From the NCBI RefSeq assembly GCF_003325355.1, contig NZ_CP030850.1:5635501-5699500 (forward strand): a stretch of 64,000 bases of DNA. Direction: 5' to 3'. Below are positions 31,990 through 54,755 of this stretch, piece after piece. Under the pieces are notes generated by a model, which had not been told where the DNA came from, searched no databases, and worked only from the letters and a program-made list of their open reading frames with translations. The DNA comes from Runella rosea. GTDB lineage: Bacteria > Bacteroidota > Bacteroidia > Cytophagales > Spirosomataceae. The position numbers and the translations under genes were made by a program. The first letter of the stretch is position 1. Each line of letters begins with the position of its first letter.

Positions 31990-34900
31990 TTACTTCTTAA
32001 TTTTTTTGACCGTAAACGGCACACACGCTTCCGCCGGACAACAATTAGTGTCTGATTCGAGAATCACCGGACAGCAGCCCCCCGTAGGGCAAGTACCGTT
32101 ATCAGCCGTAAACGTATACGTTCCTATCTCGCTCAACAAGACCACATTTCCCGTGGCAATCGGCGTACTGCCTCCGTTTCTGTACCACTTCACGTTCGTC
32201 AATCGGGTTGGGACAGTTACCTCTACTTTATTGCCGGAGCACAACTTGATGGGTACAGTAAAGCATTGACGGTCAATATCATCTTCCGTTTCTTTTCCAT
32301 TACTTGGCGTCGAATCCACATCCTTCTCATTGGTCTTGCTGATCTCAGCCGTATTGTAATGAATACCCTGTTGCGTAGCTTTCACCTTGTAAGTCAGCGT
32401 GACGGTGTCGCCGTTGGCAGGTACGCCTGCCGCAGCGATGTTACCGATGGTCCATTTGATGACATTTCCACTGATGACGGCACTACCGCGAGAAGCCGTA
32501 AAACTGCCTGCTTGAAATTCTACCGTGGTGGCGATGCTGTCGGTGACTTCTACGCCGGTGGCGTTAGTGTTGGACTCATTCCAGACTTTCAAAGTGTAGG
32601 TCAAGACATCACCGATTTGGGCAATTTTGGTGTTGATAGACTTCTTCAAAGCCAAATCCACTTCTTTGGTACAATCTTGGGCGTTGACCGTTGCCATTAC
32701 TCGACTGGTGCTGATGGCCGTGGGGCAAGTGGGGTCAGTACTGCGCGCTTGGGCGTAGAAGACTGCACCTGTCGTTGGTACTGTTCCCGATGGTTTGTAA
32801 TTAAGTCCTGTAAAGACCGCTGTACCGCCCGTTGGCTGGGTGAACCATTCGACCGTGGCCAATCCTACTACGGTGGCTTTGATGGTCGGGAAGGTATCAC
32901 CCACACAAGCCGTCATACTTGGAGTAATCAACAGAGGTAATGGAGGGTTACAATTACAGTTCGGCCCCGTGATGAGGGTATCAAACTTACAAACTGCACT
33001 CAAACTGTCAGTGATTTTGATAGTAGCCCCTGATGGTATTCCCGTCACAGTGTATGGATTAGCACCTGTCAAAGTACCTTTGTTGACTTTGAGGTTTCCA
33101 ACTTTATTCGTCACACTGAAGGTGATGCTATAAGTTTGAACATCTGCCGAACAAACGGGTGCGCCTGTGAGGGTTACTTTCGACTTCACGCAAGGAACAA
33201 CCAAAGCCGCATCCACGGTGAGGATGTCCTTCTTAGTGGGGTCGAGGGGATTGATTTCGTAGTTGCCCGATTCGCCCGTGGTCTTGTCCACATCCGAGTC
33301 CTTGGCATCGTCGCTGGGGGCATCTGTCACACTCGACAACTCACAACCCGCAGGAATCGAAGCGGCTAAGACCTTGATTTTGTAAGTCCCAGCGTCCAGA
33401 TTGGTGAATAAGTACTTACCCTGAACATCGGTGGTGTCTTTGGCAAAGAACGTTCCGTTTTTGTAGAGTTCAATCTGAACCCCCGCTACGCCACCGCCGT
33501 TGGGCGTGGTTTCGTCTTGGATACCGTTGTTGTTTTGGTCTTTCCAGACAAAATCCCCGAGGCTGCCTTTGGGTTGAACACAAGTAGGTACAATGACTGC
33601 TGCGGTATCAGTACAAACATTACCACCACCTGTTACAGAATATACAAAGCGGTAAGTTCCTGCAGTAGTCAGACCCGTGATAGCACCTGTGGCAGCATTG
33701 ATCGTAGCCGCGGCTGGGTTGGTAACTATTGCCCCCCAAGTACCACCTGAAGTGACGGCAGCCAAGGTAGCCGTAGTTGGGGCAATACCCGAAGGCGGGC
33801 AAGTTAGTGTGACATCTAGTCCTGCATCGGGCTTGGTACAACCAGCACAAGGGCTGACCGTAACGGCGACGGTATCTTTACATCCTGCGGTAGTGGTATA
33901 AACAAATTGATAGGTTCCAGCGACGGTCATATTAGTTACCGCGTTTCCATTGATGGTGGCCGTGGCGGGTGTTGTGCCTATCTGTGTCCAAGAACCTCCT
34001 GTTGGGATGGGGGCAAGTGTGATGGAGGTGGCCAGTTGGTTGGTGGCTGGATTCAAACAGGCCATTGTTGTGTCTTTTCCTGCATTGGGTTTAGTACTAA
34101 CAGTTACCGTAGCCGCTGCTGTGCCTGTACAAGTACCCACCGTACAAGTGGCGGTGTAGGTAGTTGAAGACGTTAAGGCAGGGGTCGTAGCAGGGTTGCC
34201 TGTCAAGCCACCTGACCATGTTACTGTTCCTGAACAGTTGGCAACAGTCAAGGTAGCCGTTTGACCTGAACATATCGTAGGACTATTTACTGTCGGAGCT
34301 GGCTTAGTACTAACAGTTACCGTAGCCGCTGCTGTGCCTGTACAAGTACCCACCGTACAAGTAGCGGTGTAGGTAGTTGAAGACGTTAAGGCAGGGGTCG
34401 TAGCAGGGTTGCCTGTCAAGCCACCTGACCATGTTACTGTTCCTGCACAATTGGCAACAGTCAAGGTAGCCGTTTGACCTGAACATATCATAGGACTATT
34501 TACTGTCGGAGCTGGATTGGGGCTAACAGTTACCGTAGCCACTGCTGTGCCTGTACAAGTACCCACCGTACAAGTAGCGGTGTAGGTAGTTGAAGACGTT
34601 AAGGCAGGGGTCGTAGCAGGGTTGCCTGTCAAGCCACCTGACCATGTTACTGTTCCTGCACAATTGGCAACAGTCAAGGTAGCCGTTTGACCTGAACATA
34701 TCATAGGACTGTTTACTGTCGGAGCTGGATTGGGGCTAACAGTTACCGTAGCCACTGCTGTGCCTGTACAAGTACCCACCGTACAAGTGGCGGTGTAGGT
34801 AGTTGAAGACGTTAAGGCAGGGGTCGTAGCAGGGTTGCCTGTCAAGCCACCTGACCATGTTACTGTTCCTGCACAATTGGCAACAGTCAAGGTAGCCGTT

Positions 34901-37900
34901 TGACCTGAACATATCGTAGGACTATTTACTGTCGGAGCTGGATTGGGGCTAACAGTTACCGTAGCCACTGCTGTGCCTGTACAAGTACCCACCGTACAAG
35001 TAGCGGTGTAGGTAGTTGAAGACGTTAAGGCAGGGGTCGTAGCAGGGTTGCCTGTCAAGCCACCTGACCATGTTACTGTTCCTGCACAATTGGCAACAGT
35101 CAAGGTAGCCGTTTGACCTGAACATATCGTAGGACTATTTACTGTCGGAGCTGGATTGGCCGTAATGGTCAACGTTACGCTTTTGCTCGCTTTGCAAGTG
35201 TTGTCTGCCGTATTGGTAGCCTCCACACGGTATTTGTAAACCCCTGCTGCCGTCGGCAGGGCTGTGAGTGTAGCCGTGTTTTGACCGCTGATGACAGTGG
35301 TAGTGGGGTTGGTCGTGCCGTTGTCGTTGTACCACAGGTAAGTTGCCGCCACACCATTGGTGACACTCGTCGTCACGTTGGAAGGCGTAAAACTTCCGCC
35401 AACGCATATCGTCTGGTTGGTCAAATCCGTCAAAACGGGGGTGGTGCAACTGCAATCTTTGGTTGGTGTAGTAAAGGTCTTATCTTCAAAACAAGTATTA
35501 TCGGCATTCCACACGCGGATGGTGTATTGGGTGTTGTGCTTCAAGCCCGTAAAACTCACTGAACCAGCCGTTACGGTTTTGTTAGAGGCGGCATTGTAAG
35601 CAGGGCCGCTGCCGTAGGTGGCTCCTTCTATAATGTCGGCTTTGTCGCCACCTGTTACGGTGAGCGAAGCCGTGGCGTCGTTGTTGGGAGTCGAACCTGT
35701 ACACGTTCCTGCTACTGTGGTGACGGTGGTACCGAGAGTAGGTTTGGTACAGGTCGAATAACCTACGTCAAAACTGTGGTTGTTTTCTCCCGCGTAACCT
35801 GTCGTAAATGCTATTTTTCCATCAGCAGCAGCATCGGAGTCCACTAAGTCATTGCCGCCAAGGTTTGGACTTGTCAAAGATTTTGTTCCAGAAGTTGTTG
35901 GAAACTTTAAGATATAGTCAGTATTATAAGTAAGACTAAGCCCATATTTAGCAGAGCTTGAATTAGTCCCCGAGGCCGAAGAAAAGAAGTAGTTTCCATT
36001 TGCATCTGTTGTGGCTGTGGCACCTGAAATGGGAGTTCCGTTTTTATCACAAAGCGTTACTGAAACATTTTGAATTCCTGCTTCACCTGCGTCCTGAATT
36101 CCATCTTTGTCGGTATCGTCCCACACTCTATTACCTATTTCAATGGGTGCATCATTACACATTACTTCCATATCGCCTAAGCCATTGGCTTTTCCGAATA
36201 GCCATGGTTGCAGTCCAAATGAAGGGTCAATAAATACTACATAAGATTTGTCATACTCACCGGTCGTATTATTAAACCAATAGGTGCCGCCTGCAAAATA
36301 GTTTTGATCAGGGTCAGACACTTGCGTTACTACCTGTCCTCTTCCTGGTACTATTGCAGCCCCTCCCCCTACAACTTCTTCATGCACATTGTTTTCATCA
36401 TCTCCAACATAAAATTCACCGGAAGGGCTTGTATAACCTGTACCTGTTGGTGTACCGGGGCCTTGACCATTACCTGCCCCGGCAGTAGTTACTCCGCCTG
36501 AAGTGGCATTTTTTTCTAACGTATAAACTCCTGATACCAATGATGCTCTTAATATATCACCACCTGCAAGCCCATAATAGAGTTTTGTGTCAGAGGTACT
36601 CGGTTGATAGTTTGCCGTTCCTGTTTGGTGTCCTAATCGGTCATTGAAAACCATAATCAATGACTCATCAGTATCAAATACTATATCAGCAAAAATAGGC
36701 TGTGGCTCACACACAAGGTTCAAGCCTGTTGGGCTTATGCCCCCCGAAATATTTGAAAAAGAATCTTCCCACGGATTCCATTTATTACCATAAACTCCCC
36801 CCCAGGTAAAAGCCGCTCCTTTAGTATAATTTAGCGGAAACGACAAAACACTGGTGAAAGTTGTCCCATCTAAACGATATACAGTAGCTTTCATATCTGC
36901 ATCAACCTTTGAAGTAGCAGCATCGCAAACAGAACCGATATAAAGTTTTCCTCTATGATAGGTTAATGCAAATGGGCGAGCATTGCCTCCTGTACAGGAG
37001 TTTGGAACTGCGATACCTGAACCAACTAATGCTTTTGTGGCAATATCAACCGTATAAATTTTGGAATCGTATAGATTTACAAAAAACAATTGGGTATTAT
37101 CGTCTGAGATTTCAATATCTCCCAACCCTATCTTTCCGACAAGTGAATATAATTGTGTATCGTGTGATGCTGCAAGGTCTGAAGTAGTAACCGGTACAGG
37201 TAAAGCCCTTGTTGCAATAGTAGGCATTAAACTCATACCTACATCAACCCCCAAAGTAGTTACATCTAACCATAATGAGGGAGATCCACTACTTGGTACT
37301 ATGTATATTGCCCCAATATCTTCTTTTCCATCACTATTATTATCTTTCAATGCAATATGTCGTTTCACAAAAGCACCAACAAATAAATCCTGCTTTTGTC
37401 TGTCATAAGCAATTCCCCATACAGATCCCATTTCGCTCTTTACACCAATGGTAGTATGACTTGCTGAATGTGATGGACCTGATGACGAGTACGCATATTT
37501 CACCAACACATCATTCATACCGGCAGCATTATTACCCACATAGCAGGATGTGACTAACATAGGGTCGGCAACGCCACAATAATCGGCAGGATAATTTACT
37601 GCTAAATTTTGAGTTGTCCCCGATGGAAACATCACGGTTGTTCCACCTGCGGCTCCTTTTGAGGCAAAAGTATAACTGTCGGGCATCACAAACTCTAATC
37701 GAATCTGCCCCGCAGTGCCTCCTGTCACGGTATAGGCACCGGTAGTATTGGTAGATGTACCGCCACCGGTATAAGAGACAGTCAAGGTTGTGCCGTCCGG
37801 TTTAGTTGCCTTAACAACTACGCCTGCCATACCCACATCTAAGTTGGGAGAGGCCGTACCTTTAGTACCATCCATATTAAAGTCTTTGAACACCGTTCCG

Positions 37901-38028
37901 GATACTTGGGCATTGGCACAATAAGCTAATAGGCTTATAAGTGCGGTGCTCATTAAGAGCCTAAGAATAGTGTCCCTCCTCAAAAATCGGTTTAAGCAAA
38001 TTGATTTAGGTAAGTATCTTTCCATCAT
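31990..38028 (-). CDS. Giant surface protein: SdrD-B, Ig-like repeats, DUF11
   Basis: The 2012-residue product has a long signal sequence ending near YCANAQ (about residue 41). An SdrD-like segment follows (SGTVFKDFNMDGTKG), then a region of about 150-620 that may be a propeller (DIEISDDNTQLFFVNLYDSK). SdrD-B domains lie at about 632-745 (GNRVWDDTDKDGIQDAGEAG) and 1490-1610 (GDFVWKDQNNNGIQD); five 71-residue tandem Ig-like repeats fill 959-1313, and a DUF11 domain lies at about 1783-1920 (DLALKKSINTKIAQIGDVLT). Calcium-binding DxDxDG-like loops are visible in the SdrD modules. It is presumably an adhesin or matrix protein. I see no type IX sorting domain at the C-terminus (ending VPFTVKKIKK). 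Confidence 0.85.
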   Translation of the reverse strand: MMERYLPKSICLNRFLRRDTILRLLMSTALISLLAYCANAQVSGTVFKDFNMDGTKGTASPNLDVGMAGVVVKATKPDGTTLTVSYTGGGTSTNTTGAYTVTGGTAGQIRLEFVMPDSYTFASKGAAGGTTVMFPSGTTQNLAVNYPADYCGVADPMLVTSCYVGNNAAGMNDVLVKYAYSSSGPSHSASHTTIGVKSEMGSVWGIAYDRQKQDLFVGAFVKRHIALKDNNSDGKEDIGAIYIVPSSGSPSLWLDVTTLGVDVGMSLMPTIATRALPVPVTTSDLAASHDTQLYSLVGKIGLGDIEISDDNTQLFFVNLYDSKIYTVDIATKALVGSGIAVPNSCTGGNARPFALTYHRGKLYIGSVCDAATSKVDADMKATVYRLDGTTFTSVLSFPLNYTKGAAFTWGGVYGNKWNPWEDSFSNISGGISPTGLNLVCEPQPIFADIVFDTDESLIMVFNDRLGHQTGTANYQPSTSDTKLYYGLAGGDILRASLVSGVYTLEKNATSGGVTTAGAGNGQGPGTPTGTGYTSPSGEFYVGDDENNVHEEVVGGGAAIVPGRGQVVTQVSDPDQNYFAGGTYWFNNTTGEYDKSYVVFIDPSFGLQPWLFGKANGLGDMEVMCNDAPIEIGNRVWDDTDKDGIQDAGEAGIQNVSVTLCDKNGTPISGATATTDANGNYFFSSASGTNSSSAKYGLSLTYNTDYILKFPTTSGTKSLTSPNLGGNDLVDSDAAADGKIAFTTGYAGENNHSFDVGYSTCTKPTLGTTVTTVAGTCTGSTPNNDATASLTVTGGDKADIIEGATYGSGPAYNAASNKTVTAGSVSFTGLKHNTQYTIRVWNADNTCFEDKTFTTPTKDCSCTTPVLTDLTNQTICVGGSFTPSNVTTSVTNGVAATYLWYNDNGTTNPTTTVISGQNTATLTALPTAAGVYKYRVEATNTADNTCKASKSVTLTITANPAPTVNSPTICSGQTATLTVANCAGTVTWSGGLTGNPATTPALTSSTTYTATCTVGTCTGTAVATVTVSPNPAPTVNSPTICSGQTATLTVANCAGTVTWSGGLTGNPATTPALTSSTTYTATCTVGTCTGTAVATVTVSPNPAPTVNSPMICSGQTATLTVANCAGTVTWSGGLTGNPATTPALTSSTTYTATCTVGTCTGTAVATVTVSPNPAPTVNSPMICSGQTATLTVANCAGTVTWSGGLTGNPATTPALTSSTTYTATCTVGTCTGTAAATVTVSTKPAPTVNSPTICSGQTATLTVANCSGTVTWSGGLTGNPATTPALTSSTTYTATCTVGTCTGTAAATVTVSTKPNAGKDTTMACLNPATNQLATSITLAPIPTGGSWTQIGTTPATATINGNAVTNMTVAGTYQFVYTTTAGCKDTVAVTVSPCAGCTKPDAGLDVTLTCPPSGIAPTTATLAAVTSGGTWGAIVTNPAAATINAATGAITGLTTAGTYRFVYSVTGGGNVCTDTAAVIVPTCVQPKGSLGDFVWKDQNNNGIQDETTPNGGGVAGVQIELYKNGTFFAKDTTDVQGKYLFTNLDAGTYKIKVLAASIPAGCELSSVTDAPSDDAKDSDVDKTTGESGNYEINPLDPTKKDILTVDAALVVPCVKSKVTLTGAPVCSADVQTYSITFSVTNKVGNLKVNKGTLTGANPYTVTGIPSGATIKITDSLSAVCKFDTLITGPNCNCNPPLPLLITPSMTACVGDTFPTIKATVVGLATVEWFTQPTGGTAVFTGLNYKPSGTVPTTGAVFYAQARSTDPTCPTAISTSRVMATVNAQDCTKEVDLALKKSINTKIAQIGDVLTYTLKVWNESNTNATGVEVTDSIATTVEFQAGSFTASRGSAVISGNVIKWTIGNIAAAGVPANGDTVTLTYKVKATQQGIHYNTAEISKTNEKDVDSTPSNGKETEDDIDRQCFTVPIKLCSGNKVEVTVPTRLTNVKWYRNGGSTPIATGNVVLLSEIGTYTFTADNGTCPTGGCCPVILESDTNCCPAEACVPFTVKKIKK
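34090..35154 (-). repeat. Five tandem 213-bp repeats inside the giant surface protein
   Basis: Five direct in-frame copies of 213 bp (71 codons) start at 213-bp intervals, marked by ACTGTCGGAGCTGG at 34289, 34502, 34715, 34928 and 35141. Each encodes one Ig-like module opening PAPTVNSPTICSGQTATLTV. The copies are almost identical at the DNA level, including third positions, so they are recent or homogenised. Copy number is likely to vary between strains. Confidence 0.95.
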
Positions 38029-38077
38029 TTTTGTATTACATTTAGTAACAATGTGATACGAAATAGTGGCAAAAAAT

Positions 38078-38093
38078 ATACCTAATTAGGTAT
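38078..38093 (-). promoter_or_regulatory. Palindromic candidate operator upstream of the giant surface protein
   Basis: ATACCTAATTAGGTAT is a perfect 16-bp palindrome 49 bp upstream of the start codon at 38028. A diverged version (ATGCCTGATAGGGTAT, 38368-38383) lies in front of the decayed paralogue fragment, so the site was probably duplicated with it. The binder is unknown; AraC and TPR-HTH regulators are encoded next door. Confidence 0.5.
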
Positions 38094-38292
38094 CCAATAT
38101 ATCCAAAAATGTATCTAAAATGCTTTTCTTATCCGCAAAAGCCTCGTTAAAATTCTAAAAGAGCCTTCGGTGCGCTTTTTTTATCCATTTCTGCCTCCCT
38201 CAACTTCCTGAGAAATATATAATTCCATAAGTCAGAAATGTCACCTTATCAGAAAACAAGTAGGATAACACCCACTGATGGGGAGTAGATAG

Positions 38293-38346
38293 ATTTCTTT
38301 AAAGCAAAATCCACCTTTTTGGTGCAATCTCGGGCGTTAATACGAA
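38293..38346 (-). pseudogene. Fragment of a paralogous DUF11-type surface protein
   Basis: On the minus strand it encodes INARDCTKKVDFALKK, matching VNAQDCTKEVDLALKK in the intact 2012-residue protein (DNA at 32641-32690). The frame runs on for about a dozen unrelated residues before stopping and has no start. It is a remnant of a second copy of this gene. Confidence 0.65.
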
Positions 38347-38665
38347 TCCTGATGCACACCAAAAATTATGCCTGATAGGGTATCCGAAATGCTTTACTAT
38401 GTATCCAAAATGACATTTAACGGATTCGATTACTTAAAAGACAAGTATTTATTGGGTACAAATTGTATTTTACGGTATCTAATATAAAATTGCCAAAGGG
38501 ATAATTAAAGAAGCAGTAATCGGACAATGAGGCAAATGTAATCCTCTTTGCATCAAAAACGGACTGGTGTAATCGCACAGATTTAAAGTTGATTGTAACG
38601 ATGCCTCATAAAAACAACTAAACCTATACCCTACACAATTTTTTATGTTTGTTACTTTGGGTATG

Positions 38666-39076
38666 TTATTGATTCAATGTTTTGTAAAGTATATCCTTTT
38701 TATAATCTGTTGCGGTTTGGCCTGTGTGAGCAAGAAATGCTTTCGCAAAACTTTGTGAACGGCTAAACCCTACCTTGTACGCAATTTGAACGATGCTGTA
38801 TTGATTTGAAAGTAACAATTCTTTCGCTAATTCCAGACGGGCATTAAGATGATATTGATAAACACTGTTGCCATATATCTGAAGAAACAATTTCCTGAAT
38901 TTAGAAGGACTCATATTGGATGTACGTGCCAACTCGGCAATTGTAGGCATCGGCATCGACAGGTTAGCCATAATGGCTTGATGCGCTTCAATGATTTTTG
39001 CGTAGTCACCTTTTAATACATTGGGAGGGCAGACCGGTAAGGGTGTTACAGGTTCTGTTATTGCTGAAATTTTCAT
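38666..39076 (-). CDS. AraC-family regulator, short form
   Basis: The 136-residue product is essentially an AraC/XylS DNA-binding domain. The first helix-turn-helix reads MPTIAELARTSNMSPSKFRK and the second YSIVQIAYKVGFSRSQSFAKAF. There is only a short N-terminal arm and no ligand domain, so it is either a constitutive DNA-binding protein or responds through a partner. It is divergent from the TPR regulator (77 bp between starts) and faces the giant surface-protein gene, making that gene and the neighbouring regulator plausible targets. Confidence 0.85.
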   Translation of the reverse strand: MKISAITEPVTPLPVCPPNVLKGDYAKIIEAHQAIMANLSMPMPTIAELARTSNMSPSKFRKLFLQIYGNSVYQYHLNARLELAKELLLSNQYSIVQIAYKVGFSRSQSFAKAFLAHTGQTATDYKKDILYKTLNQ

Positions 39077-39153
39077 CGTAGGTAATAGAGAGAAGTACTG
39101 CTTATGTACTCAAAAGAGTATTAATCAAACAGTGACAAAGTTGGTCGTTTATA

Positions 39154-40878
39154 ATGGATAGAGATAAAAAAGTAGGGTTACAAATGGCTATCATATCCCA
39201 AAATGGGTATAAAAAGTGTAAATTATGTCTGTTATTTGTGCTTTTATGGTGTTTAGGATGTAAATCAGGACAAAACCCGATCCATGAAGAAATTAGACGT
39301 GCCTGTATTGAATCCGACAAAACGCTGAATCAATACATACAGGTAGATTCATCAAAAGCTTTTACCGTGATACGTAATCTTGAGCGGAAGTTTCCCAACT
39401 CAACTTTTGTCAAAGTAAACGCAGCCATAGATTATGCAGAGCTGTATCATTATTGGAATGAAGATTCATTAGCGGTAAGCTATGCAAGTCGAAACTTAAA
39501 TTTGGCAGGTAGAAATCATTTTTATAATGAGCAAATACATTTGTACCTGATTTTAATAGAAATAACAGAAAATTATAAATCAGCATTAAATTATCTTGAG
39601 AAAGTTGAGCTTTTGTTAGAATCTAAAAGATATACAGTTGACCCTGCATTGATTTCACGGTTTTATTATTTATTCGGGTGCTACTACTATGAAATAAGAG
39701 ACTATTCCAATGCGAAATATAATCTTAATAAATCGCTCTATCTAAGTAGAAAAAATAAATTAATTTGGGAGGAAAGCAAAGCACTTAATATCCTAAGCGT
39801 AGTATTCGAGAATGAATTAAAACCTAAAAAAGCATTACAATACATTAATGAAGCTATCAGGATAGGTGAACGTTTTTCGCCAATAAATTGTGGAGGTTAT
39901 TATTATCAAAAAGGAGTAATACTTAATCATTTAAAGCGTTTTTCAGATGCCGAAGCTGCAATTTTAAAAGCAAAAGAATGTTATAAGATGCACCCACATC
40001 CACACAATCCTGAAATTCTTGAAAGTGTATTGGCTGAAGTTTATTTAAGTCAAAAAAAGTACAAAGAAGCAGGTGACAACTACCGTGCTTTTTTGGCAAA
40101 AGCTAAATATCAATCTACTAAAGTATGGGCCTATAATTTATTGTCTAAATATTATTTTGAAGTAAAAGATTATAAAAATGCTTATATGGTCAATAAAGAG
40201 TCTATTAAATTGAGAGATTCGATATTTTCAACCGAAAGGACTTTTTTTATTGTACAAAAGCGTACTGATTATGAATTGGCTAAAAAGGAATTGGAAATCA
40301 AAGAAACACAAGTTCGATTTCGACTTTCTGTCGCAATATTTATTTGTATTGTCATTTCAATTCTCATCTTCGTTAAGCTATCACATAGAAATAGTTTGTT
40401 AATGAGGCAATTAGCCAAAGTGAATGAAGAAAAACTTCAACAGGAAATTGAGTTTGAACAGCGTAAATCAGCATTGTCTACTTTGCAATTAAGCCAACAT
40501 AATGACGTACTGAAAAATCTAAAAAAAGATATTGAAAAAATAGGCCATGTTAACCCTGATCTCATCAAAGACCAAACACGATCAATTATAAAAACACTTG
40601 AAAAGGATTTGAATATAGATAATGAATGGAATAAATTTAAATTACACTTTGAATTGGTATCACCCTGTTTCTTTGAAACACTTAAAACACGAAACAGCCA
40701 ACTCACTGATCTTGATTTAAAACATTGTGCTTACTTAAAGATGAATTTAACTCCTAAGCAGGTAGCACAGATATTGGGAGTTGCGCCAAAAAGCGTAACT
40801 CTCTCAAGGGTAAGAATCAAGAAGAAGCTTCACTTGCCTGAAGAAGAACAATTAGCCGATTTTTTAAAGAAAATATAA
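39154..40878 (+). CDS. Membrane-spanning TPR regulator with C-terminal helix-turn-helix
   Basis: The 574-residue product has an N-terminal hydrophobic export segment (LCLLFVLLWCLGC, possible lipid or signal anchor), TPR-like repeats over about 60-370 (for example YFLFGCYYYEIRDYSNAKYN-like units), one transmembrane helix at about 387-407 (LSVAIFICIVISILIFVKL), a coiled coil, and a C-terminal LuxR-like HTH (LTPKQVAQILGVAPKSVTLS). This layout places the TPRs outside and the DNA-binding domain inside, a one-component sensor type common in Bacteroidota. The gene is strikingly AT-rich compared with the PUL. Confidence 0.8.
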   Translation: MDRDKKVGLQMAIISQNGYKKCKLCLLFVLLWCLGCKSGQNPIHEEIRRACIESDKTLNQYIQVDSSKAFTVIRNLERKFPNSTFVKVNAAIDYAELYHYWNEDSLAVSYASRNLNLAGRNHFYNEQIHLYLILIEITENYKSALNYLEKVELLLESKRYTVDPALISRFYYLFGCYYYEIRDYSNAKYNLNKSLYLSRKNKLIWEESKALNILSVVFENELKPKKALQYINEAIRIGERFSPINCGGYYYQKGVILNHLKRFSDAEAAILKAKECYKMHPHPHNPEILESVLAEVYLSQKKYKEAGDNYRAFLAKAKYQSTKVWAYNLLSKYYFEVKDYKNAYMVNKESIKLRDSIFSTERTFFIVQKRTDYELAKKELEIKETQVRFRLSVAIFICIVISILIFVKLSHRNSLLMRQLAKVNEEKLQQEIEFEQRKSALSTLQLSQHNDVLKNLKKDIEKIGHVNPDLIKDQTRSIIKTLEKDLNIDNEWNKFKLHFELVSPCFFETLKTRNSQLTDLDLKHCAYLKMNLTPKQVAQILGVAPKSVTLSRVRIKKKLHLPEEEQLADFLKKI

Positions 40879-40940
40879 GTGCATCTTTTTACAATAGTAA
40901 TACACTTAACCATTGACCCTACCTTGAAATACTGATACTT

Positions 40941-41528
40941 ATGAATTCATCCCAATCTCGACTTTTCAACTCATTTCCTGACTATCCGGAAGACTCTTCG
41001 TTGAATATTAATATTGCAAAAGAATATTCAATTAAAATTATTGATTTTCTCATTCAAAACGGGATTCCTTTCAGCTGCTTTCAAGATAATAACGTCTTTG
41101 TTAAATACGAGAAGGATTTGGAAGGTAAAAAGGACGTTTTGGCTTCTGATAAAGATTCTTTTATAAGGAAACCTTTGAAGGAAGGCAGTGATTTAGAAGC
41201 CGCTATAAAGGTGATACACCAACAAATTACTGCTGATATTTCTGCTGAACTGCCCTCCATTGAAACCATCACTTCTGCATTAAACATAAGCCCCGCTATA
41301 TTTAAAGCAATATTTAAGAGGATGTATGGCCTGCCTTTTCACAAGTACTGTATAAAATATAAAATGGAACAGGCAAAACAGTTGTTGGAAAGCGGGAAGT
41401 ATTCTGTAACGCAACTATCCGAAGCATTAGGATACACTACTCCCACAAAGTTTGTCGTCGTATTCAAAAAATATCAAAATATTACTCCCGGAAAAATAAA
41501 AGCATTAGCAAAAGCCCAACCCAAATAA
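40941..41528 (+). CDS. AraC-family regulator
   Basis: The 195-residue product has an N-terminal part of about 95 residues with no family I recognise (EYSIKIIDFLIQNGIPFSCF) and a C-terminal AraC domain (IETITSALNISPAIFKAIFK, then YSVTQLSEALGYTTPTKFVV). It starts 62 bp after the TPR regulator on the same strand and shares its low GC content, so the two are probably one transcription unit. It is only distantly similar to the AraC protein at 38666. Confidence 0.85.
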   Translation: MNSSQSRLFNSFPDYPEDSSLNINIAKEYSIKIIDFLIQNGIPFSCFQDNNVFVKYEKDLEGKKDVLASDKDSFIRKPLKEGSDLEAAIKVIHQQITADISAELPSIETITSALNISPAIFKAIFKRMYGLPFHKYCIKYKMEQAKQLLESGKYSVTQLSEALGYTTPTKFVVVFKKYQNITPGKIKALAKAQPK

Positions 41529-42468
41529 ATAACAATACTGTCTATACGTAACAACGAGAAGAAAAGCTGCTGCTGTTATACTCTTTTGGTATAGTGCAAT
41601 GATAACCGTAATTGGTTTTTTGAGGAAAAAGACAGCCCAAAAAACGACTGTACAAGAGGCAATGAAGGCTATGCTTTCCTTCATTGCCTCTTGTACTTAT
41701 TAGTAATTCAACCGGTCTCGTCTAACGTGCGATTACAATAACATACCCCTAATTGTTACCATCGAATGTTAAAGGAGCTATCGCCCATTATTTACCACAA
41801 CGCTGATTTTAATACAACACAACTCCGAATTGGTCCCTGTAGATGCTTGTGCCGGACCGGGTGTCAGAGAAAAATATGCCGCAAAACATTTAAAAAGCGT
41901 CTGCGGACAGATAGGGAAAGCCGGTTGGCCAATATGGCCCGATGCATCCAGAGGCGGAAGTTATCCGATGCCTGACTTGGCACAATTTAAACAGGAGCTA
42001 AGAATTATTAAAAAGGCCGCCAATTCCGTTCTTTTTCAGCAGTAAAAAGCATACCGACACCGAGCGGCCTAAAGACAAAACGTCTTGTATTGTAGCCATT
42101 AACTTTCCAAAAATGGATTATTACAAAGTTAGGCAACAACAATAAGGAAGAATGACCGAGTTTTTTCTTCTACTTTCTTCTAAAACCAGTATTGTATGAA
42201 CCGGAAATAATCTCGTGTGGAAGAAGTATATTCATAGATAACTTCTTTCACACGGATAACGAAGCTGTTTCGCAATTGAAAATGAAGGCAAACCATTTCC
42301 ACCCGATTGCGGATTTCCTCGAAGCGGTACGTTTACATTAGTATTTAGGAAACCCCTCCGATGAACAGTCGTTTGTAGAGAGTATCCTTTTGAACTGTAT
42401 AAATAATTTTTCAAATTTCAGTAGCTCTCTGGCCGATTTTCGTTTTATAAAGAAATTCAAAATCAGAT
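41529..42468. other. 940-bp intergenic region with hairpin and coding-like scraps
   Basis: It contains a perfect 19-bp-arm hairpin (41650-41696). Two short stretches look like worn coding sequence but lack context: plus-strand 41791-42045 (ending in a stop, with AGPGVREKYAAKHLKS) and about 42239-42340 (KANHFHPIADFLEAVR). I do not recognise either. No subunit-3 gene precedes the GMC gene here, unlike at 26099. Confidence 0.5.
41650..41696 (+). terminator. Perfect 19-bp hairpin after the AraC gene
   Basis: GTACAAGAGGCAATGAAGG (41650-41668) and its exact complement (41678-41696) flank a 9-nt loop, 121 bp after the AraC stop. It lacks a strong T-run (TTATTAG follows), so it may be a terminator, an RNA-stabilising hairpin or a mobile palindrome. 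Confidence 0.55.
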
Positions 42469-49504: not shown

Positions 49505-49529
49505 TAGCGCAAAAGAGGGGTTTGTGGTA

Positions 49530-51011
49530 TTACAAATCCCTCCTTTTGATGTGTTCGAGTGTAATCAACAACGGGACGATTCTACCTTCGTGTTTTTCCC
49601 GTAATTCAAAACCCATCTTCTTCGTTTTGTAGTCAATTTGCTCATAATTCAATAGTTTTGAGCCCATTACCTTCTGCACCCGCTGGGTAAAAGTTCCCTT
49701 TTGCCCATTCATGGCGGTGATACAACTATCAATGTTGACTTCTTTATCGGAAAACAAAAACAACCAAGATTCTGTCCCGGTGACTTCATTAAGTGCGTAC
49801 ACCTGCTCTTCTGAGGGGAGAAATACCTTGGTGTTGGCACCAACCACGGGGCTGATGGAATCAATCGGGAAAAGCTTATCAACGCTGGGCTGGGTGGCAT
49901 TGGCGCCGAGTACATACAGGTAGGTTTGTTTATCTACGTTAATGCGGAATTTGTATTCGGTGTCGGTTTGTTGCGGGTCGCGGAGTGAGTAGGCCACCAG
50001 CGGCTCATTGTCGGTGGTGTTTCCTTCAGGTGACTGGCGCGTAAATGGAAGCTCCACGGGACGTAAATTGGCCAGTTCGATGGTCACATCGCCTGAGCGC
50101 AGGGCTTCGGTCGTGTAGTTGTTGGGGGATAGATACGCCTGAAAGCCGTATTTGGTGTGTTTGGTGTAATCATCGTAGCGAATCCAGAAAAAACCATCTT
50201 CACCCCAATCTTCACCTCGGCTGTTGACGACGTGAAAAGCCCCGCCGAATTTTTTGTCGTCGTATCCCACCACGCAAACCGCGTGCCCGCCGCGTAAATT
50301 GTCCGATTTATTAGGGTCCCATAGGCCATACTCATCGCCCGAGCCAATGCCGAAAAACCGCAAAATACGCATCCAGAGCTTGGGCCAAAAACCGAGTTCG
50401 TCCAAGGAAGGAGTAGTTTGAATCGCAATAACGACGGGGGTTCCTTCGGCCAATGCCTTCTTGGTCGCGATGACAATGTCTTCCTGCCGGTCGTTCAACC
50501 CAAAAAGGCGGATATAATCCATGATTTTGGATTCTGTCGCTGGCTGGAGTGAGGTCATTGGCGTACAGTCGGGGTAGCCCTGTTGGGAGAGTCGGGCCAC
50601 GCCGTTGGTTTTCAAAAATTCAAGCGCATTGGCTACTTCTGCCCCTTTTTTACACGCGTCGTCGTTGGGGGATTTGATGGCGTTGTAAAGAAAAGAGGGC
50701 GAAAAACGCAGCGCATCTATCGAGTCTTTGTTGGTAATATTGAGCCGTTTGGCTTCTAATATCGTACGCATGTAGTAGGCTGTCGAAAATCCCACGCAGG
50801 TACCGAGGGTCCCTTGGTTGAGAACTGAAGGTACATACATCGACAAATCCACTTTGGGGGGGAGCCCATCTTCGTTGACCACCAGACTCGATTTTTTTTT
50901 CAGGACATTATTGTACGAAGTATCGTTGAAATTCAGTCCTTGGGCGTGCAGTGAGGTATGGCCCAATATCCACAAAAAAGTGAGTAAGGAGAGTTGCTTT
51001 ATAGGGTTCAT
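49530..51011 (-). CDS. Exported papain-like (C1) cysteine peptidase with DUF4384 domain
   Basis: From the ATG at 51009-51011 (MNPIKQLSLLTFLWILG, a signal peptide) the product is 493 residues; an upstream start at 51050 would add 13 residues and overlap the preceding gene. The C1 active site is complete: Q66 and C72 in NQGTLGTCVGFST, H243 in RGGHAVCVVGY, N263 in HVVNSRGEDWGEDGFFWI. The C-terminal part has a DUF4384-like domain (QTYLYVLGANATQPSVDKLF). It is the last gene of an operon with two caspase-fold genes and lies 19 bp after the second. It should act in the periplasm or outside. Confidence 0.9.
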   Translation of the reverse strand: MNPIKQLSLLTFLWILGHTSLHAQGLNFNDTSYNNVLKKKSSLVVNEDGLPPKVDLSMYVPSVLNQGTLGTCVGFSTAYYMRTILEAKRLNITNKDSIDALRFSPSFLYNAIKSPNDDACKKGAEVANALEFLKTNGVARLSQQGYPDCTPMTSLQPATESKIMDYIRLFGLNDRQEDIVIATKKALAEGTPVVIAIQTTPSLDELGFWPKLWMRILRFFGIGSGDEYGLWDPNKSDNLRGGHAVCVVGYDDKKFGGAFHVVNSRGEDWGEDGFFWIRYDDYTKHTKYGFQAYLSPNNYTTEALRSGDVTIELANLRPVELPFTRQSPEGNTTDNEPLVAYSLRDPQQTDTEYKFRINVDKQTYLYVLGANATQPSVDKLFPIDSISPVVGANTKVFLPSEEQVYALNEVTGTESWLFLFSDKEVNIDSCITAMNGQKGTFTQRVQKVMGSKLLNYEQIDYKTKKMGFELREKHEGRIVPLLITLEHIKRRDL

Positions 51012-51030
51012 GCGATTGACTTTGAGGGGA

Positions 51031-51852
51031 TTATCGGTTAGCTTTAACAACCGGTTTGGCGGCAGCGGGACGACAACTTACTGGAACCTGACTCAAGCCT
51101 GCGTATTCAGGGATAAATGATTTCGTAATTTTGTTAATTCTTGCCAGCAGGTTGTTTAAGGTTACCTCTTTGAGGTTTTTTGCGTACAACATATCCTCAA
51201 AAGCCTCGGTAAGCGAATAAGTAAAGACTGAATTTCGTTGGATGGTAAAGACCGGTTTACCCTTTTGTCCACTAGATATTTTCAGGATACGGCAAGGCTC
51301 GCCGAGAAATAGTTTTTTTAGAATTTCCTTGCTACGGTCGTGTTTCACAATCGTATTTCTGGGCAGCGGAGTGGGGTATCGGTCAATCATTTTGTTTCGG
51401 CAATCGGCCATCACAATACCGAGTCGGAGTCTTTTGGTTTGAAGGATAGCGGCCACTTCATCAATGGATACCAGACTGTGTTTTTCAAGTTTAAACAAAC
51501 CCGGATTGTCTAATTGCATTGAAGGCAAAGGGCTGTTGTCGGGGTAGGTGCCAAAGCCAGAGTAATAAAAAACGACAATGTCATTTGGATGAATGGAGGT
51601 GTCGCTGACCGCATTTCTGACCGCCTTTTCGGTAAGTCCATCCACTTTTCGGTTGACATAAACGGTTTGTAAATGGTATCCGATTTGCGTACTGATTTTT
51701 TTAAACATGGTGCTTACCATCTCTTCATCCTTGAGGCTTATCATCCCAAAATCTTTGTTTTCATAATCGGAAGCAAGAATGAGGTGCAGCTTTTGAGCGC
51801 GGCTGATAAAAGGTGAAAGGGCAAACAGAAAAAGAAAAAAGTAACTTTTCAT
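51031..51852 (-). CDS. Caspase-like protein lacking the catalytic histidine (pseudo-caspase)
   Basis: The 273-residue product has a signal peptide (to SRAQ, residue 20) and one caspase/C14-type domain: LHLILASDYENKDFG, then VVFYYSGFGTYPDN and LGIVMADCRNKM. In active C14 peptidases the first motif reads SGHG; here the histidine is F100 (TTT codon at 51553-51555). C151 is kept at the nucleophile position. It is therefore probably inactive as a protease, or uses another base, and may act as a partner of the active caspase encoded just upstream (8 bp between stop and start). There are no extra domains. Confidence 0.8.
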   Translation of the reverse strand: MKSYFFLFLFALSPFISRAQKLHLILASDYENKDFGMISLKDEEMVSTMFKKISTQIGYHLQTVYVNRKVDGLTEKAVRNAVSDTSIHPNDIVVFYYSGFGTYPDNSPLPSMQLDNPGLFKLEKHSLVSIDEVAAILQTKRLRLGIVMADCRNKMIDRYPTPLPRNTIVKHDRSKEILKKLFLGEPCRILKISSGQKGKPVFTIQRNSVFTYSLTEAFEDMLYAKNLKEVTLNNLLARINKITKSFIPEYAGLSQVPVSCRPAAAKPVVKANR

Positions 51853-51860
51853 AAAAAGGG

Positions 51861-54755
51861 TTATTTATTTCGGAATCGTCCAATGAGTGCCATAAACTCG
51901 GGCATTTCTCTGAGGTAGTCAAACTCGGGATTTTTGCTGATACTGTCAAAATTGGTATATCCTCTTTCGAGGGCTTTGCCCAGCCATTCAACGGCTTCAA
52001 AAGGAAGCTTTTGGCGGGCTTTGATGGTGGCAATGTAATAGTAAGCGCGGAAATAAGCGGGATTAAGCTCGATTACTTTTTTGTAAGAAGCCTCGGCTTC
52101 AGACAACCGATTTTGTCTTTCCAGCAGGTTGCCGTAATTGTTATGGAAATTGGCATCGTTGGGCGTAAATCCAAGGGCTTTTTTATAGGCAGTTTCGGCT
52201 TCTTCAAAACGGTTTTGGCGAGAAAGTAAATTTCCATAGTTGCTGTACACCAAGCCGTTCATGGCGTTCAATTCAATGGACTTTTTATAAGCGGCTTCGG
52301 CTTCGGCAAAACGATTTTGGGCCGCCAACAAAATGCCGTAACTGTTGTAAATGTAGGCATCATTGGGGTTAAACTCAATCGCTTTTTTGTACATCACTTC
52401 CGCTTCTTCGGGTCGATTGCCCGCACTGAGCAGCATTCCGTAGTTCTTGTACACTTCCGAATCGGTGGTATTGAGCTGAATCGCTCGTTTGTATTCGATT
52501 TCAGCTTCGGTAAGGCGGTTTAAATTTTTGAGTAAAATAGCGTAATTTTTGTGGACGTTGGCATCGTTGGCGTTGAGCTCTATAGAGCGCCGGTAGGCAG
52601 CTTCGGCCTCATTTTGCCGTCCTTGCCGAGCCAGTAGATTGCCGTAGTTTCCGTACACGACGGAGTTGGTGGGGTTAAGCTCAAAGTATTTTTTATAAGC
52701 ATTTTCGGCATCGGCGAAACGGTTTTGAGCCGCCAATAAAACGCCGTAGCTATTGTAAACGAATGCATCGTTGGGGTTTAGTTCGATGCATTTTTTATAC
52801 TCGTTTTCGGCCTCTGCTTGACGGTTTTGGGATACCAATAATATACCATAATTAAAATGCGCTTGGGCATTGTTGGGGTCTAGTTGGATGGACTTCTGAA
52901 ACGCCGTTTCAGCTTCTGCTGGGCGGTTCTGGACGGTCATGACAACTCCATAATTGCTGTAAGCGGTGGCGTAGTTGGGCTGAAGTTCAATGGCTTTTCT
53001 GTACGCAATCTCGGCCTCGTTGTACCTCTTTTTTGTGTTGAGCAGCATCCCATAGTTGTTATACGTTTCGGCATCGCTGGTTTTTAACTCAATGGCTTTT
53101 TTGTAGGCTTCTTCGGCGGCTTCTGCTTTGTTTTGAATTGAGAGCAGGTTGCCGTAGTTTTTGTAGACTACGGGGTCGTCAGCTTTTAATTCAATGGCTT
53201 TTTTGTACGCTGCCTCTGCTTCGGCCCGTTTATTTTGGGCGGCCAGCGCCATGCCGTAATTTACGTGTAAAAAACTCCAGTTGGGGGCGAATTGAATTCC
53301 TTTTTCAAAAACCTGTTGTGCTTCTTTGTACGATTTTTTCAAGTACAGAATGCGCCCCGCGTCGTTGTAGGCGGGAGCAAACGTACTGTCGGCGTCGAGG
53401 GCCTGACGAAAGTTCAATAAGGCGGCATCGACATTGACTGGTTCTGCGATTAATCCTTTATAATATGAAACCCGCGCCCGAAGATTGGGGTACAAAAAGT
53501 GGGATTTCCCCAAAATCAAGTACGTTTTTTCTAAATATCGGATGTTTTTTTGGTAAGCACTTGTCACTTCAGGCGCGTTTTTGTTTTCCAAAAGACCGGC
53601 AAAAGCTTTTGATGATTCTTCTAGCAAGGCCGCCGCAAACTCCCGCTTAATGAAAGGGTGCATGTCTTTGATAGAGGGCGCTGCAAGCAATCTTTCAAAA
53701 TAGCCCTCGGCGGCGTTAGGCACATCAAGCAATTGCTTATTGGTGACTGCCTCCTGAAAATCAGTGTACAGTTTTTTGACGTCGGTTTCCGCTTCTTCTA
53801 AAATAGTTTGGGTTACGCCTCGGCCTTGTACTGCTGCAAAGAGCGGTGGCGGTACGTTTTTACGGACTGATTCCAGCGTAGCTACGTCTACTTTGACGAT
53901 GGGCAGTGATTTGTCGGCGGCAATCAAAAGAGGGTTCTGTGGATTAGGGGCGGCCTCGGCAGTAACGCGGTCTTCCAGATAGCGCTCCAATTCGCGTAGG
54001 GTAACGGTTTTGTCACCGTCGGTATCGGCCAGTCCCTGCATTCCCCTGATAAGGTGATAGCTAAACAGCCCGCGACCGCCTCCCCATTGGTATCCTTCCA
54101 GCGACAACTCATTGGCCTGACACGCCATAAACTTCACTTCATTGGCTACCTGTTTGAGCAGTTGCTGGCCCATGAGCTGAACCCCGCCAATTTCATTTCC
54201 TGCTAACTTTCCTGCCCGACACGCATCCAAAAACAACAATATCTGAGCGTGATTTTTGGTTGAAAGGGTGGCAATGTAATCCTGTAAATAAAGTACCGCA
54301 AAGGCCGTGGAATTATAATTGCTGCTGTAAGAATCGTGGGTAAGCAAAAAACCGCGTTGGGCAATGGTGCGGGATTCTTGGTCGCCGTGCCCCGAAAAAT
54401 ACAAGAATACGCGGTCGTTGGGCTTGACAAAATCCAGCAGATTTCCCATGGCCCGGTCTACCTGTCCCAAGGTTGCTTTTTCGTTTAGCAGAAGTTGGAT
54501 GTTGGATTCTGGTACTGAGCCTCCCGCGGGAGACGTTAGAAAATTATAGAAAGCAAGGGCGTCGTCGCCGGCAAAGCGCAGTGAATTGATGTGTAGATAT
54601 TGCGACACGCCCACAATCACTGCCCATGTTTGCCCCACTGTTTTTGGGGCCATGTTGGCTTTCTCCACTTTTTGGCCGCGTTCTTCTTGCGCTTCAATCT
54701 GGCCCGTAAACGTGATAAAAGCCCAAAAAATGAGTAAGAGTTTTTGAAGTTTCAT
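51861..54755 (-). CDS. Exported caspase-family (C14) peptidase with EF-hand-like loop and about 13 TPRs
   Basis: The 964-residue product has a signal peptide (to IEAQ, residue 23), then a C14 domain (about 42-235) with the full dyad: H123 in FLYFSGHGDQESR and C179 in LLFLDACRAGK. A 12-residue EF-hand-like loop follows (DTDGDKTVTLRE, residues 244-255). After a helical linker, at least 13 near-canonical 34-residue TPRs run to the C-terminus (NNYG/ SNYG repeats with AEAAYKKAIEL). The TPRs probably bind partners or substrates outside the cytoplasm. It heads the three-gene protease operon; upstream are 789 bp without a gene. Confidence 0.9.
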   Translation of the reverse strand: MKLQKLLLIFWAFITFTGQIEAQEERGQKVEKANMAPKTVGQTWAVIVGVSQYLHINSLRFAGDDALAFYNFLTSPAGGSVPESNIQLLLNEKATLGQVDRAMGNLLDFVKPNDRVFLYFSGHGDQESRTIAQRGFLLTHDSYSSNYNSTAFAVLYLQDYIATLSTKNHAQILLFLDACRAGKLAGNEIGGVQLMGQQLLKQVANEVKFMACQANELSLEGYQWGGGRGLFSYHLIRGMQGLADTDGDKTVTLRELERYLEDRVTAEAAPNPQNPLLIAADKSLPIVKVDVATLESVRKNVPPPLFAAVQGRGVTQTILEEAETDVKKLYTDFQEAVTNKQLLDVPNAAEGYFERLLAAPSIKDMHPFIKREFAAALLEESSKAFAGLLENKNAPEVTSAYQKNIRYLEKTYLILGKSHFLYPNLRARVSYYKGLIAEPVNVDAALLNFRQALDADSTFAPAYNDAGRILYLKKSYKEAQQVFEKGIQFAPNWSFLHVNYGMALAAQNKRAEAEAAYKKAIELKADDPVVYKNYGNLLSIQNKAEAAEEAYKKAIELKTSDAETYNNYGMLLNTKKRYNEAEIAYRKAIELQPNYATAYSNYGVVMTVQNRPAEAETAFQKSIQLDPNNAQAHFNYGILLVSQNRQAEAENEYKKCIELNPNDAFVYNSYGVLLAAQNRFADAENAYKKYFELNPTNSVVYGNYGNLLARQGRQNEAEAAYRRSIELNANDANVHKNYAILLKNLNRLTEAEIEYKRAIQLNTTDSEVYKNYGMLLSAGNRPEEAEVMYKKAIEFNPNDAYIYNSYGILLAAQNRFAEAEAAYKKSIELNAMNGLVYSNYGNLLSRQNRFEEAETAYKKALGFTPNDANFHNNYGNLLERQNRLSEAEASYKKVIELNPAYFRAYYYIATIKARQKLPFEAVEWLGKALERGYTNFDSISKNPEFDYLREMPEFMALIGRFRNK

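Follow-up and report, generated by a model that had tools for sequence, protein, structure and literature searches.

Three exported genes and a convergent kinase gene at the locus

The window analysed in this study is a 64,000-nucleotide stretch of the Runella rosea genome. Three genes lie on its minus strand in the order P0001 (positions 51861-54755, 964 aa), P0002 (51031-51852, 273 aa) and P0003 (49530-51011, 493 aa), separated by gaps of 8 bp and 19 bp; a first-pass annotation of this DNA had given the same genes, positions and spacing. The P0003 start is an ATG chosen inside a longer TTG-started frame. Pfam searches identified a Peptidase_C14 domain (E 3.4e-15, residues 44-265) and 13 TPR stretches in P0001, a Peptidase_C14 domain in P0002 (E 1.8e-7; PF00656, 31.5 bits against a cut-off of 21.4), and a Peptidase_C1 domain (PF00112, E 9.7e-13) followed by a C-terminal DUF4384 domain (E 2.1e-6) in P0003, in agreement with the earlier domain reading. 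The gene of a TPR-sensor histidine kinase, P0004 (47134-49269, plus strand), is convergent with this operon and proved to be its conserved partner. A possible 12-bp hairpin (49515-49542, strand not assigned) lies at the operon 3' end, before the kinase gene; it is a doubtful feature, the scan having returned 12 terminator-like sites against 9.0 ± 3.5 in shuffled sequences.

P0001, P0002 and P0003 each begin with a hydrophobic stretch followed by AQ, as read from the sequence, which is consistent with the signal peptides proposed for all three by the first-pass annotation. When 15 relatives of P0002 were aligned, ten had AQ at that place, and three more had SQ or GQ. No secretion-sorting domain occurred among the NCBIfam matches listed (for P0001, the best 25 of 29 families). 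Because of these N-termini, and because no sorting domain appeared among those matches, the periplasm is the likely place of the three proteins.

Elsewhere in the window, a gene at 31990-38028 (minus strand) encodes a 2012-aa protein with SdrD_B, Ig-like and DUF11 domains, in which several near-identical repeats of about 70 residues were seen by eye. The G+C content is 0.34-0.35 at 38001-42000, compared with 0.40-0.51 in the window's other 2-kb stretches.

P0002 lacks both residues of the catalytic dyad

P0002 had been described as an inactive C14 protein in which the catalytic His is Phe. The C14 domain alignments placed Phe100 at the His site, confirming this replacement, and placed Arg152 at the nucleophile site, a second loss that had not been noticed. 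A profile built from 64 dyad-intact relatives matched residues 1-257 of P0002 with 134.5 bits and aligned its 'gDaC' over 'ADCR' without a gap, which put D under D and Arg152 under the nucleophile Cys. We considered the neighbouring Cys151 as the nucleophile and rejected it: active relatives mostly read DCC, the second Cys being the nucleophile, and the profile puts Arg under that Cys. Several members of the pseudocaspase clade described below have Tyr or Gly at the Cys151 position, and if the alignment were anchored on Cys151, P0002 would still be without a catalytic His. Pseudo-orthocaspases are prokaryotic p20-type C14 proteins with one or both dyad residues replaced, and P0002 is one of them.

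The structure model of P0002 had a mean pLDDT of 80.3 and a pTM of 0.82. Its best Foldseek match in the PDB was the MALT1 paracaspase (E 1.5e-9, TM-score 0.55 by query length), and caspases were also matched. A profile of 15 P0002 relatives found nothing significant among PDB sequences; the best match was an unrelated RNA polymerase subunit (E 0.021), and metacaspase-9 gave E 0.07.

The pseudocaspase clade and its neighbourhoods

In a FastTree phylogeny of 133 C14 domains, P0002 fell within a clade of 35 exported pseudocaspase domains (support 0.97). The His-Cys dyad was found in none of the 35. The pairs at the dyad site were FR, LR, PR, QR, RR, FS, YS, FT, YT, YK, RY, RD and RN, where L082 and one of the two L117 proteins, gapped at the site in one alignment, were counted as RD from the 133-domain alignment. 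The clade occurred at 31 loci in at least 26 genomes and at least 10 genera among 200 genomes of the family, the genome and genus counts being lower bounds, as some matches of the P0002 search were not fetched. The family of this sample may differ from that of NCBI, under which Runella belongs to Spirosomataceae, and includes a genome matching Siphonobacter, which NCBI places in Cytophagaceae. Across 395 genomes of the phylum, with at most 5 candidates scored in each, the pseudocaspase profile matched at E 1e-6 in at least 7 genomes.

The clade consists of a main branch of 25 loci and a side branch of six. In 24 of the 25 main-branch loci, a C1 gene was adjacent to the pseudocaspase gene, within 2.8 kb of it or fused to it, and a TPR-sensor histidine kinase (217-804 bits) was encoded within 6 kb in 23. 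The exceptions, L078 (no kinase) and L120 (no kinase and no C1), end at contig ends. Every main-branch locus was a match of the P0002 search itself, and the set is therefore independent of any search with C1. In six loci (L081, L085, L114, L115, L116 and L118, of which L116 and L118 are cut by contig ends), pseudocaspase and C1 lie in one reading frame, in operon order. A structure model of the natural fusion in L081 predicted no interface, because its pLDDT was only 40.2. The first-pass annotation had joined an active caspase, an inactive homologue and a second cysteine peptidase in one exported unit. Since the P0002-type/C1-DUF4384 pair is conserved in at least 10 genera and is fused in these six loci, the link between the inactive homologue and the second peptidase holds; the exact trio was far narrower, as described below for P0001.

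We compared these loci with those of dyad-intact relatives. Of 38 dyad-intact P0002-type loci, 32 had no P0004-like sensor and six had a weak one (52-107 bits). A sigma-70 region-4-like gene was found in 19, the query itself scoring only 22.8 bits against a Pfam cut-off of 25.7, and 23 had C1 no more than 12 kb away, a count from a biased sample, since part of the loci had been fetched via C1 or P0001 matches. The 33 pseudo-form loci had the kinase in 22, C1 in 23 and a sigma-like gene in three (weak, 35-37 bits). Strong kinase matches in this sample accompanied the main-branch pseudo-forms.

The side branch (L106-L109, L111 and L112) was without C1 and without a P0004 ortholog. Its five loci free of contig ends had two or three other kinase genes beside the pseudocaspase gene, and a LytTR response regulator, searched with a query from L106, in the same 20-kb stretch. 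This LytTR search, with one response regulator as query, found none near the main-branch modules; weak matches lay at least 8 kb off in some. L106 (G000:C1:2113000-2132999) holds a second pseudocaspase (YS) of the source genome, together with HATPase-domain kinases and the LytTR response regulator. It also encodes an 868-aa protein with SprB repeats, and L107-L109 and L112 are similar loci.

A separate dyad-less group was found in L130, L132 and L133, where C14 genes stand in tandem, two of them dyad-less and the third intact; neither C1 nor a P0004-type kinase lay beside the dyad-less proteins. One protein, in L098, had HT at the dyad site. The L130/L132/L133 group lies near the clade in the tree and is apparently a second origin of exported pseudocaspases. 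Because the dyad was lost in this group as well, exported caspase folds may have turned into non-catalytic components on more than one occasion.

The kinase sensor is the closest partner of the pseudocaspase by tree distance

P0004, which was absent from the first-pass annotation, was the most constant third partner of the P0002/C1 pair. It has a signal-like N-terminus, TPRs, one transmembrane stretch near residues 351-369 and a HATPase domain (HATPase_c, E 1.7e-19). HisKA scored 24.2 bits, below the cut-off of 26.9, and the phospho-acceptor motif GIAHEIQNPLN marks the protein as a histidine kinase. When the P0004 sensor half was used as the query, 22 of the 24 genomes had their best match at the module (216-783 bits). 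In G124, one of the two exceptions, the contig with the module is 6 kb long; the other, G198, is without a pseudocaspase module. The next best matches anywhere scored 147 bits (P0005, a kinase whose gene flanks the operon on the opposite side) and 144 bits (in G095, away from its module).

Another gene of the window, P0006 (59342-61531, plus strand), encodes a HATPase domain and has Asp where the phospho-acceptor His is expected (GIVDRILNPLNY), compared with His in all 32 of the canonical phospho-acceptor motifs found. The P0006 motif also occurs in a relative at L071 8894-11083, beside the second module of that genome.

Co-divergence was analysed with trees of 20 of the 25 main-branch modules; L078, L116, L118, L120 and L141, all cut, were left out. 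The tree distances of the C14 domain correlated with those of the kinase sensor with a rho of 0.94 (maximum of 2000 permutations, 0.63), with those of C1 at 0.84 (permutation maximum 0.46) and with those of the kinase half at 0.63 (permutation maximum 0.49). With the kinase half and C1 corrected for, the C14-sensor correlation was still 0.72. C14 and C1 correlated only weakly once both kinase parts were accounted for (0.24), and the C1-sensor correlation given C14 and the kinase half was 0.38. These results indicated that, by tree distance, the kinase sensor is the pseudocaspase's closest partner. Since species history is common to all parts of the module, co-divergence is support for a partnership, not proof of it. 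One genome, G050, has two modules. Its second module groups with the G134 module among the same other genera in the C14, C1 and sensor trees; in the kinase-half tree it stands beside the first, without support.

P0003 and the wider link between C1 and C14 genes

The papain-type active-site residues Q66, C72, H243 and N263 are all present in P0003, and together with the Pfam matches they bear out the C1 peptidase with DUF4384 of the first-pass annotation. The nearest solved structure by profile was the cysteine protease 3ois (E 2.6e-15). No I29 propeptide was matched by Pfam in P0003, which leaves room for control by a partner. Among named records, its closest relatives were in Runella aurantiaca and Runella sp. 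CRIBMP (97% identity), and across 395 genomes of the phylum, with at most 4 candidates scored in each, the C1 profile matched at E 1e-20 in at least 23.

From a search of named genomes we took the best 80 of 557 confirmed C1 candidates; one was without a C1 frame and 25 had less than 5 kb on one side, and 54 loci were usable. A C14 gene was present in 37 of the 54, within two reading frames in 36. Several family records in this set repeat loci that the first set already contained; with the family records L212-L230 and L232 removed, C14 was found in 24 of 40 C1 loci. Outside the family, 9 of 11 C1 loci (L198, L200-L205, L207 and L208, not L199 and L206) had C14 within about 3 kb. Six PF00656 matches in the 7.16 Mb of the source genome correspond to a chance rate of about 2% for C14 in a 20-kb stretch, and other genomes may hold more. 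Pseudo-forms were not found outside the family: the 20 C14 proteins of L198-L211 all had HC when aligned to the caspase model. In L229-L291, 47 of 48 C14 proteins read HC, the exception being from Rudanella, a family member. Because C1 loci outside the family often have C14 and none of those examined showed a pseudo-form, the C1-C14 pair is, as far as these gene neighbourhoods go, broader than the pseudocaspase.

Six C1-DUF4384 proteins of the same family (L094, L096, L137, L138, L139 and L145) form a clade of pseudo-papains that read QSQN, Ser having replaced the catalytic Cys and Gln the catalytic His; L131 reads QGNN.

Exported papain-like enzymes are often degradative, and the C1-DUF4384/C14 neighbourhood is broad and mostly without a P0004-type kinase. 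Both observations favour a nutrient-scavenging or protein-turnover operon, in which P0003 would digest periplasmic or imported protein, the kinase would merely regulate expression and P0002 would be structural or chaperone-like. Such an operon, however, leaves unexplained why the pseudocaspase lineage has one orthologous kinase and co-diverges most closely with its sensor half, and we consider it unlikely.

P0001 was added to the operon in one Runella group

P0001 retains H123 and C179 and aligns with the other dyad-bearing C14 members. The intact dyad, the roughly 13 TPRs and the EF-hand-like loop (DTDGDKTVTLRE, residues 244-255) had all been read correctly by the first-pass annotation. We dropped the loop as a speciality of P0001: similar loops occur in the P0001 relatives of loci L121 and L127 and in L005 of the source genome, and it was therefore taken as a trait of that branch.

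Among the 200 family genomes, P0001, P0002 and P0003 occurred together in 5 of the 13 members of the genus (G000, which is the source genome, G031, G050, G134 and G095), this genus of the sample being taken as Runella. The gene order was identical in all five, and the exact trio was seen at no other fetched locus. P0001 was absent from 20 of the 25 main-branch pseudocaspase loci. In G119, G075 and G111, P0001 orthologs (71-73% identity) adjoin a different dyad-intact C14 gene of 663-666 aa, and neither a P0002-type nor a C1 gene was found in the 14-20 kb around them. Remoter P0001 relatives occur in two other genera, at five loci (L121, L127 and L174-L176). There they adjoin a P0002-type gene with an intact dyad and a TPR kinase of weak similarity, with no C1 found within 12 kb. 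Thus, P0001 is an addition at the operon head in one group of Runella genomes. In both of these sets of loci, P0001-type genes adjoin a second C14 gene. Such company is thus frequent for P0001-type caspases, and we read the Runella trio as two arrangements that appear to have merged.

The first-pass annotation had suggested a proteolytic cascade or activation module. In the form considered here, P0001 would cut and activate P0003, and P0002 would be a decoy or regulator. The operon-like row with its 8-bp and 19-bp gaps, the order kept in all trio genomes and the P0001-type caspases beside a P0002-type gene and a TPR kinase in the five other-genus loci speak for it. Against it, most main-branch loci lack P0001, the orthologs in G119, G075 and G111 stand without P0002-type and C1 genes, and the P0002-type proteins of the five other-genus loci keep their dyad, with no C1 found within 12 kb. 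We therefore regard this cascade as unlikely. As the core function, a P0001-driven cascade was ruled out by the absence of P0001 from those 20 loci, the trio not being conserved beyond 5 of the 13 genus members; as a Runella addition it is possible.

P0001 matched the PADLOC caspase model (E 2.7e-21), and papers that mention both Runella and caspase include several on bacterial gasdermins. These two points would fit programmed cell death or phage defence, as in caspase-gasdermin or caspase-associated conflict systems. This reading is very improbable: all three proteins look exported, PADLOC gave no match for P0002 or P0003 at E 0.1, and the flanking genes scanned (P0004-P0006) are kinase or kinase-like. 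In addition, the scores for the EACC1-associated caspase (NF047832) were 69.6 bits for P0001 and 19.0 for P0002, against an NCBI cut-off of 140.

P0002 is under strong purifying selection. Its dN/dS was 0.015-0.043 in six pairs among the four closest genomes, similar to the values of P0001 and P0003; in four pairs with the more distant G095, dS was saturated in three and dN/dS was 0.099 in one. That P0002 is a decaying relic kept by chance, which its short length (273 aa, against mostly 355-413 aa in unfused relatives) and the loss of both catalytic residues might suggest, is scarcely credible against a dN/dS as low as that of its neighbours and a clade spanning at least 10 genera.

Proposed role of the module

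Our preferred reading, held with moderate confidence, is that P0002 is a non-catalytic regulatory or adaptor protein that links the cysteine peptidase P0003 to the sensor kinase P0004 in a periplasmic module. P0003 would be the working papain-like peptidase. P0002, a caspase fold no longer cutting, would serve as a binding subunit that holds P0003 and/or its peptide products and would present that state to the periplasmic TPR domain of P0004. The kinase would then pass a signal into the cell. The analysis shows the association of these genes; binding between the proteins, the direction of signalling and the sensed input are inferred. In the one Runella group that carries it, P0001 would probably act as a further processing enzyme or as a scaffold. 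Co-location may also reflect co-regulation only. A more specific form of the adaptor reading, in which the dead caspase groove of P0002 is a receptor for peptides or a bound state from P0003 and the complex is read by the P0004 TPR domain, is a tentative possibility on the doubtful side. If true, the module would be a two-component system that takes protease action as its input, with a pseudoprotease as the reporter.

With these results, a pseudocaspase clade of at least 10 genera gains two named partners, among them an orthologous kinase, and the natural fusions point to an interaction. The module is present in named strains, for example in Runella aurantiaca YX9 (L212), and the partner question is thereby open to ordinary experiment.

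Comparison with known systems

The animal protein c-FLIP is a regulatory pseudoprotease, an inactive caspase fold that tunes an active cysteine protease. Its likeness to P0002 would be one of working logic only, as P0002 is bacterial and exported and its presumed partner belongs to a different active class. P0003 is like the papain family C1 (PF00112) in its Q, C, H and N residues and differs in its C-terminal DUF4384 domain and in having no I29 propeptide match. We found no description of a pseudocaspase/C1/TPR-kinase module in the open-licence papers searched.

Several elements of the module's context have already been published (PMC6426788, PMC3501461): pseudo-orthocaspases, operons with more than one caspase or with a caspase and sigma factors, and joins of DUF4384 with caspases. 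Multi-metacaspase operons have been reported in Bacteroidetes and other groups, along with operons that include signalling or proteolysis domains (PMC3501461). Those with sigma factors resemble the context of the dyad-intact relatives described here; a pseudocaspase/C1/histidine-kinase module, in contrast, is not named in the portions of that paper available to us (PMC3501461).

According to the accessible parts of the 2019 survey of pseudo-orthocaspases, 10 pseudo-forms occurred among 1078 Bacteroidetes sequences. The survey ties such proteins to photosynthetic lineages and considers that active orthocaspases of the same cell are not regulated by them (PMC6426788). The forms that it describes there include FS proteins with TPRs and QC proteins with an active-looking trypsin-like domain and DUF4384 (PMC6426788). 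The proteins of our clade are like those bacterial pseudo-orthocaspases in having a prokaryotic caspase fold without the His-Cys dyad, and YS and FS pairs are found in both (PMC6426788). Unlike them, they are linked with a papain-like peptidase and with a histidine kinase, neither of which is mentioned in the accessible parts of the survey, and they form a clade of one Bacteroidota family with FR, LR, YK, RD and other pairs at the dyad site (PMC6426788).
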